Shown one piece after another: positions 54,752 to 57,441 of a stretch of 64,000 bases of DNA (position 1 is its first letter; every line of letters starts with the position of its first letter). The notes below the pieces were generated by a model. It was not told where the DNA came from, did no database searches, and saw nothing but the letters and a program-made list of their open reading frames with translations. The stretch is from Allorhizobium ampelinum S4 (GTDB lineage Bacteria > Pseudomonadota > Alphaproteobacteria > Rhizobiales > Rhizobiaceae): positions 1,987,001-2,051,000 of the forward strand of contig NC_011989.1 in NCBI RefSeq assembly GCF_000016285.1, given 5' to 3'. A program made the translations under genes and the position numbers.

Positions 54752-54836
<85 letters not shown>

Positions 54837-56660: not shown

Positions 56661-56879
56661 AGCTCCGTCCGTCGCGGCAGTCCTCTATATAGGCGCCTTT
56701 TCAACAATGTCGAAAACCCGATTTCAGCGTCGCAGCAGCGAGAACTATCAGGTTGGCATGGGTATTCAGCCAGCGATAATTACCACATGCGCGAAATGCA
56801 TAGCTCACATGACAATATCGCACTGCACAAAACCCATAAAAACGATTAGATAAATACCAACAGCAGACGAGAACATCAG

Positions 56880-57042
56880 TGTTTACGGATGCGAGCAGCG
56901 AAAGCTGCAATTCAGTTTCGGCGCCGCATACTCCTCCTCCCAATGCGCGCCGAACGGGCTGACAACCCTCCTCCTCCCAGTTGTCGCCCATTTCAAATGA
57001 CGCCCGCCGGATCTCCTCCCCCGGTGGGCGTTATTGTTTTCA
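56880..57042 (+). ncRNA. Candidate CCUCCUCCC-motif ('cuckoo') small RNA
   Basis: No ORF explains this segment. It folds into a small stem GCAGC-GAAA-GCTGC (56895-56908), then three stem-loops each with a CTCCTCC tract in the loop. Hairpin 1 (56917-56954) has a 12-bp stem with one bulge, hairpin 2 (56956-56989) a 10-bp stem with one bulge. Hairpin 3 (57000-57031) is an 11-bp stem with one G-U pair followed by TTATTGTTTT, a good intrinsic terminator. CTCCTCC is complementary to Shine-Dalgarno sequences. In Rhodobacter, RNAs of this design (CcsR1-4) lie beside a DUF1127 gene; a DUF1127 gene starts 250 bp downstream here. A possible -10 TAGATA lies near 56847. The 5' end is not defined. Confidence 0.72.
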
Positions 57043-57291
57043 GCCTCTTCTCCTCCACCGTTCATGAACGACTGAAACCGCTCAAACGCAGATTTTCAGC
57101 AGCGGGACCATTGTGAGCCGAATTTGCTCGAGAAATAGACAGTTCTTAACAAATCATTGAGGCGCCATGCAATCACAGCATAGGTGCTCCGCTGGAATGG
57201 CACTTCATAAGTTATGCCGCAGCGCATATATTCTCCTCAACACATGAAGGGCTGGCCGATTTGCCAGCGAACGCTGAAAAGAGGCAAGACC

Positions 57292-57441
57292 ATGAACATC
57301 ACTCGCTCGCTGAACAACTGGCGCAAATATCGTCAGACCATTACTGAACTTGGCCGCATGTCGGACCGCGAATTGCACGACCTCGGCATTGGCCGCGACG
57401 ACATCCGTCGCGTTGCCCGCCACGCCGTCAAGGCTGGCTGA
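57292..57441 (+). CDS. DUF1127 small arginine-rich protein
   Basis: 49 residues; the frame is open further upstream, but GAGGCAAGACC fixes the ATG at 57292. The core WRKYRQTITELGRMSDRELHDLGI is the DUF1127 signature, and the tail RDDIRRVARHAVKAG is basic. Members in Agrobacterium and Rhodobacter affect growth and stress responses, and the Rhodobacter protein paired with CcsR RNAs binds RNA. It lies on the same strand and just downstream of the candidate CCUCCUCCC-motif RNA, which supports a functional link. A terminator follows. Confidence 0.92.
   Translation: MNITRSLNNWRKYRQTITELGRMSDRELHDLGIGRDDIRRVARHAVKAG

Follow-up and report, generated by a model that had tools for sequence, protein, structure and literature searches.

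Anti-Shine-Dalgarno (aSD) small RNAs with motif-bearing hairpin loops have been described from several alphaproteobacteria, and those closest to the locus analysed here form the ar14 family (RF02344), to which NfeR1/Smr14C2 of S. meliloti belongs and which shares with it three aSD hairpins, the third terminator-like, and several copies per genome. In sections of PMC7143759 and PMC10746234, ar14 is described as having three hairpins whose loops all carry the aSD motif, and the models in a part of PMC3927594 have two, three or four hairpins; the four-hairpin type SmelA099 of that paper uses the same hairpin module, while the copy described below has three aSD hairpins. A further likeness is found in the CcsR1-4/ccaF1 operon of Rhodobacter, where aSD hairpins are also linked to a DUF1127 gene. 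This DUF1127-CcsR-like association is reported to be common in alphaproteobacteria and has been named CIN1 (extract of PMC10253847), so the association itself is known. AbcR1/AbcR2 (ar15, RF02345) resemble ar14 in an aSD-type motif and in LsrB/VtlR control in relatives, but they are a different family, with five copies elsewhere in the genome of Allorhizobium ampelinum S4.

We compared the window, that is, the whole 64,000-nucleotide stretch of S4 DNA that was analysed, with 4227 Rfam families. Two matches exceeded the cut-off, one tRNA and ar14 (RF02344), the latter over the full length of the model (Table 1). An earlier note on this DNA had proposed that the plus strand encodes an aSD small RNA of the cuckoo type, which the RF02344 match bears out, and had suggested a covariance-model search for the cuckoo/CcsR family. 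With the Rfam models, ar14 scored over its cut-off but CcsR1 (RF02791) below its own (33.8 bits against 65.3), and membership in CcsR1 was rejected. Membership in ar7 was likewise rejected (30.8 bits against 60), and ar15 gave no match over the cut-off within the window. The same note had regarded three aSD loops instead of two as a novelty. The ar14 feature of three hairpins, each with an aSD loop, is present in the window copy, and the printed alignment of RF02344 has ACCUCCUCCC in the family consensus of the third, terminator-type loop as well. Together with the published descriptions in the parts of PMC3927594, PMC7143759 and PMC10746234 cited above, this makes three loops the rule of the family, and the claimed novelty falls away. 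The hairpin module and motif of the window copy agree with the description in the part of PMC3927594 concerned. These results indicate that the window segment is a well-conserved member of the known small RNA family ar14.

Table 1 Features of the ar14 locus (window coordinates)
Feature	Position	Strand	Basis
LysR-type box TGCG-N6-GCAT	56788..56801	+	About -70 to -57 from the putative start; binding putative
Conserved promoter element CTCACATG..ATATCGCACTGCACAA	56804..56830	+	Alignment and pattern scan of named genomes
Putative -35/-10: CTGCAC, 17 nt, TTAGAT	56823..56851	+	By eye, class B alignment
Putative 5' leader, two hairpins without aSD motif	56858..56912	+	Fold, ortholog leader z-scores, covariation in close subset
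ar14 small RNA core (RF02344)	56913..57036	+	cmscan 103.2 bits, gathering cut-off 58.8, model 1-123
aSD hairpin 1	56917..56954	+	Letters, family alignment, fold; both-side changes in 7/7 counted pairs
aSD hairpin 2	56956..56989	+	Letters, family alignment, fold; both-side changes in 7/9 counted pairs
aSD hairpin 3, terminator-type, then interrupted U-tract	57000..57031	+	Letters, family alignment, fold
DUF1127 promoter region: TGCA-N6-GCAT box, TTCATA-17-TATATT	57168..57232	+	Sigma-70 scan; ortholog alignment
DUF1127 small protein gene, 49 aa, outside the RNA	57292..57441	+	Pfam PF06568, 57.7 bits

The three adjacent stem-loops had been placed correctly by the earlier note, and all of them are contained in the minimum-energy fold of 56861-57038 (-77.8 kcal/mol, z -6.63, equalled by none of 200 shuffles). 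CTCCTCC occurs in overlapping pairs at 56931/56934 and 56968/56971 and again at 57013 and 57050; position and fold confirm that it is exposed in each of the three loops. Counted over the whole window, the motif is nothing unusual (10 occurrences against 7.5 expected), but four separate occurrences lie here within 120 nt, and 300 dinucleotide shuffles of the window gave two at most. The T-rich tail noticed behind the third hairpin is present, although its U-tract is interrupted (UUAUUGUUUU), and a terminator scanner with loops limited to 3-8 passed over this hairpin. The fourth CTCCTCC, at the position noted before, sits past the terminator hairpin and recurs in 2/35 of the loci called class B below, the window copy included, as well as in the A. 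vitis locus L187. Owing to its position and rarity we left it out of the RNA.

The S4 genome contains six ar14 copies over the cut-off. In a set of 60 genomes, ar14 exceeded the cut-off in 37: every one of the 36 genus members, S4 among them, and a single genome of another family. Across the wider family, 137 of 151 genomes have such a match. The 115 matches of the 60-genome set were classed by terminator sequence into A (n = 36), B (n = 35) and C (n = 41), after L107, L112 and L113 had been set aside by hand, and the window copy belongs to class B. Class B is a single copy in each of 35 of the 36 genus genomes, and the genome that lacks it is an assembly of 84% completeness. In all 35 loci the RNA is flanked on one side by a divergently oriented DUF2157 gene, and a DUF1127 gene of the same direction follows 219-516 nt downstream. 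A search with the DUF1127 of the window gave no match for class A in the stretches examined (0/36) and, for class C, one about 0.2-0.3 kb upstream in 19/41. The 60 nt before the model start hold an extra aSD motif in 36/41 class C copies, in 0/35 of class B and in none of the 35 class A copies tested. In two identical class C variants from one genome (L110 and L111, genome G015) one hairpin module seems to have been fused or to be missing, as recombination between modules might produce, and two Sinorhizobium loci (L145, L158) carry two tandem ar14 copies within about 0.4 kb.

The class B alignment comprised 35 sequences, 32 of them distinct. No variation occurs in loop 1 (CCTCCTCCC), in loop 2 (CTCCTCCCA) or over most of loop 3 (TCCTCCCCC); in the third loop TCCTCCC is kept in 35/35 and CTCCTCC in 34/35. 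Changes on both sides were found in 17 of 31 stem pairs, against 9.0 in shuffles and with none of 500 shuffles reaching 17, although kinship of the sequences can by itself beat such shuffles. Hairpin 3 has such changes in 3 of its 15 counted pairs, and eight of these pairs are invariable. Across the alignment 96.8% of pairing cells pair, compared with 31.4-49.0% when the partners are slid. Compensatory stem changes and invariant loops in relatives, which the earlier note had named as a check, are thus both found, the loops being nearly invariant. Outside the 35-sequence set, L187 (A. vitis CG78) has the third-loop motif broken to CTTCTCC with the stem kept.

The segment had also been described as free of ORFs. 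This is literally wrong, since three mechanical ORFs overlap it, of 75 aa (plus strand, 56889-57116), 60 aa (minus strand, 56883-57065) and 96 aa (minus strand, 56701-56991), and their existence would be the ground for reading the segment as protein-coding on either strand. In six relatives, one of which could not be anchored, the plus-strand ORF kept its ATG in 2/5, and the rest had a broken frame, stops or an altered end; the base changes in the stems, moreover, are compensatory. The coding reading of the 75-aa ORF was rejected on these grounds, and we regard protein coding by the segment as having a negligible chance.

With six copies in the genome, the window copy might instead be a silent paralog that keeps its structure and has little or no expression in S4's species; northern blots reliably showed one of the six S. 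meliloti copies (section of PMC7143759). Against this stand the covariation and the near-invariant loops of class B, as well as an upstream element and a position kept in 35 of 36 genus genomes, and silence of the copy appears highly improbable to us. What computation shows of this ar14 copy is its membership in the family, its folded structure and covarying stems, the conserved element upstream and its synteny.

That upstream region holds a TGCR-N6-GCAT box in 31/35 class B copies and GCACTGCA in all 35 loci. A TGC-N6/7-GCAT box lies upstream of ar14/NfeR1 too: the site bound by LsrB ahead of S. meliloti NfeR1 is TGCA-N6-GCAT, at -72 to -60 (portion of PMC10746234), and the window box resembles this site in sequence and, counted from the putative start, in position. 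The CTGCAC/TTAGAT pair was not called in a sigma-70 consensus scan, which called 56753-56780 instead, a stretch unconserved in class B, and the -10-like hexamer of the putative promoter is weak. The conserved promoter-like element suggests a transcription start near 56858.

Such a start would place a leader of about 55 nt ahead of the Rfam model, and its computed fold has two hairpins. The second is the GAAA-tetraloop stem (56895-56908), which the earlier note had rightly seen ahead of the three stem-loops; the class B copy thus appears to carry a 5' leader of two non-aSD hairpins that is absent from the 123-position ar14 model. RNAalifold on 20 aligned leaders returned zero consensus pairs. 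We took this null as the result of a gappy alignment of diverged stems, and for that reason used single-sequence z-scores with flank controls together with a close subset. The 31 distinct class B leaders (four duplicates dropped, the leader of L079 shortened) had a mean z of -2.80, with p ≤ 0.05 in 25/31, compared with mean z values of 0.31 (0/31) and -0.03 (3/31) for their equal-length flanks. The leaders are not uniform: their stems and loops vary from species to species, and in some relatives there is one hairpin. Among six close leaders, one of which (L047) is misaligned at the second stem, 5/17 pairs changed on both sides against 1.9 in shuffles, and 7 of 500 shuffles reached 5. Outside the genus the signal was weaker, with a mean z of -1.91 and p ≤ 0.05 in 22 of 42 leaders whose bounds are approximate; their upstream flanks had a mean z of 0.10, with 2/42 below -1.5. 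These 42 leaders remained of 80 named loci after 29 duplicates, eight loci whose stretch shows no aSD motif and one short leader had been dropped, and 8/42 hold a DUF1127 ORF. Near-identical leaders occur, among the named relatives, in A. vitis strains (L172, L187).

The same ar14 RNA could also start near 56913 and have no leader, in which case the upstream hairpins would be promoter-proximal DNA or chance. The RNAalifold null would agree with this, as would the length of NfeR1, about 122 nt by the coordinates in a section of PMC7143759 and equal to the Rfam model, and the -10-like TATATT that class A copies have just upstream of the model start. In class B, however, the conserved element lies at least 80 nt before the model start, and the leaders of 31 relatives, unlike their flanks, beat shuffles in fold, so that we consider a start near 56913 unlikely and keep to the longer RNA. 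Its leader may serve stability, processing or protein binding, which we put forward as suggestions. The GAAA stem was also scored as terminator-like by the terminator scanner, and acting as a terminator it could possibly yield a short leader RNA.

The DUF1127 gene of the window lies 254 nt downstream of the ar14 copy on the same strand; NCBIfam gave no above-cut-off name for its protein. Its promoter region carries ATGC-N7-GCAT-NGG(T/A)G in 35/35 class B loci, in an upstream alignment that is partial for L003, L036, L076 and L080 because of a mis-placed start codon. This box and the one of the small RNA are both of the TGC-N7-GCAT type. This downstream gene with its own promoter region differs from the Rhodobacter arrangement, in which DUF1127 is upstream and co-transcribed (extract of PMC10253847).

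The promoter element was matched by 103 stretches in a scan of named genomes, and 80 of these were analysed as loci. The order element, aSD array, DUF1127 within 1.3 kb was found in 59/80. Eight loci, seven titled Hoeflea and one an alphaproteobacterial MAG, have element, DUF1127 and then the aSD array; three have element and aSD array with no DUF1127 match in stretches that end 457-633 nt past the element; and three, from Phyllobacterium, have element and DUF1127 with no aSD array within 420 nt. Five of the remaining loci were cut off and two had neither aSD array nor DUF1127. The ORF between element and hairpins in Hoeflea is DUF1127, and in the three such loci scanned the hairpins that follow match ar14 at 93-102 bits; this gene order matches that of the ccaF1-CcsR operon of Rhodobacter (PMC10253847, same extract). 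Six Hoeflea-type loci (L162, L171, L184, L201, L212, L217) have more DUF1127 matches about 0.65 and 1.1 kb past the promoter element, a small cluster. In the literature searched, the cuckoo RNA and 2017 NfeR1 papers aside, we found neither 5' hairpins without the aSD motif nor the gene order of Hoeflea described. A tRNA scan of 21 of the 80 loci found an 85-nt tRNA-Leu upstream on the opposite strand in 15, an 83-nt tRNA-Leu on the same strand in three and none in the stretch examined in three; the window has its own 85-nt tRNA-Leu at 54752-54836, upstream on the other strand. This common neighbour suggests that the ar14/DUF1127 locus occupies one chromosomal site across many genera, Hoeflea included.

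Given the DUF1127 gene so close on the same strand, the eight Hoeflea-type loci with DUF1127 between element and array, and the maturation of CcsR RNAs by CcaF1 (part of PMC10253847), the aSD hairpins of the window might be processed from a transcript shared with DUF1127, as in the Rhodobacter operon. The window's DUF1127, though, stands behind a hairpin of terminator type and is preceded by a conserved promoter region of its own, which makes such a shared transcript very unlikely here. For the locus at large we tentatively propose, at less than even odds, one LsrB-type transcription unit with two forms in Rhizobiaceae. Hoeflea would have the form in which DUF1127 follows the promoter element and precedes three aSD hairpins. 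In relatives from Allorhizobium, Ciceribacter, Rhizobium and Sinorhizobium, structured non-coding 5' hairpins would have taken the place of the coding part, and DUF1127 would stand downstream with a separate box of the same kind. On this view the leader is a functional module of the small RNA, for processing, stability or DUF1127 binding, beyond the Rfam ar14 model.

Our main reading, to which we give a probability of about 0.8, is that the window copy is a trans-acting ar14 (cuckoo-type) small RNA, some 180 nt long and with five hairpins, that is probably under LsrB/VtlR-type control and blocks ribosome binding sites. Its transcription, regulator, targets and mechanism may be pictured by analogy with studied relatives. 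A LysR regulator of the LsrB/VtlR type would probably activate the copy from the promoter at about 56788-56851, and transcription would probably run from about 56858 to the third hairpin, giving an RNA of two non-aSD leader hairpins followed by three with CUCCUCC loops. Each aSD loop could pair with a GGAGG-type Shine-Dalgarno site of target mRNAs and so prevent ribosome loading, and silencing would probably be redundant across the three loops and act on many mRNAs. In S. meliloti, NfeR1 has three redundant aSD motifs and silences ntrB (section of PMC10746234), and the targets in the studied relative belong to transport and nitrogen metabolism. The ntrB gene of S4 has GAGGAGG directly ahead of its ATG, an unspecific match, as any full Shine-Dalgarno site would fit.

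The regulator locus of S4 (L258) comprises the end of an oxidoreductase gene, a LysR-type gene, two tandem AbcR RNAs and, by eye, an ArsR-like frame, the same gene order as around vtlR of A. tumefaciens (portion of PMC7486931). NCBIfam gave no above-cut-off name for this LysR gene among the 25 of 55 families listed. By eye, the AbcR1 upstream region of S4 also has GCATGCCT..TATG and CACTGCACAA stretches like those of class B. A. tumefaciens VtlR controls abcR1 and atu1667, which encodes a small hypothetical protein (PMC7486931), and VtlR of Brucella melitensis controls three DUF1127 genes (extract of PMC12595884). By analogy, the window's genes may be under LsrB/VtlR control.

The analysis places this ar14 copy precisely and corrects the view of three aSD loops as a novelty. 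It also adds what the earlier note had overlooked: the promoter-like element, the putative leader to which the GAAA stem belongs, five sister copies elsewhere in S4 and the DUF1127 gene next to the RNA. Its new points are modest, namely the probable leader and the link of this leader to the DUF1127 operon form. Should the leader prove real, it would, together with the Hoeflea gene order, link stand-alone ar14 small RNAs to the DUF1127-CcsR operons in evolution, and it would open a direct test of the action of DUF1127 proteins on aSD RNAs.
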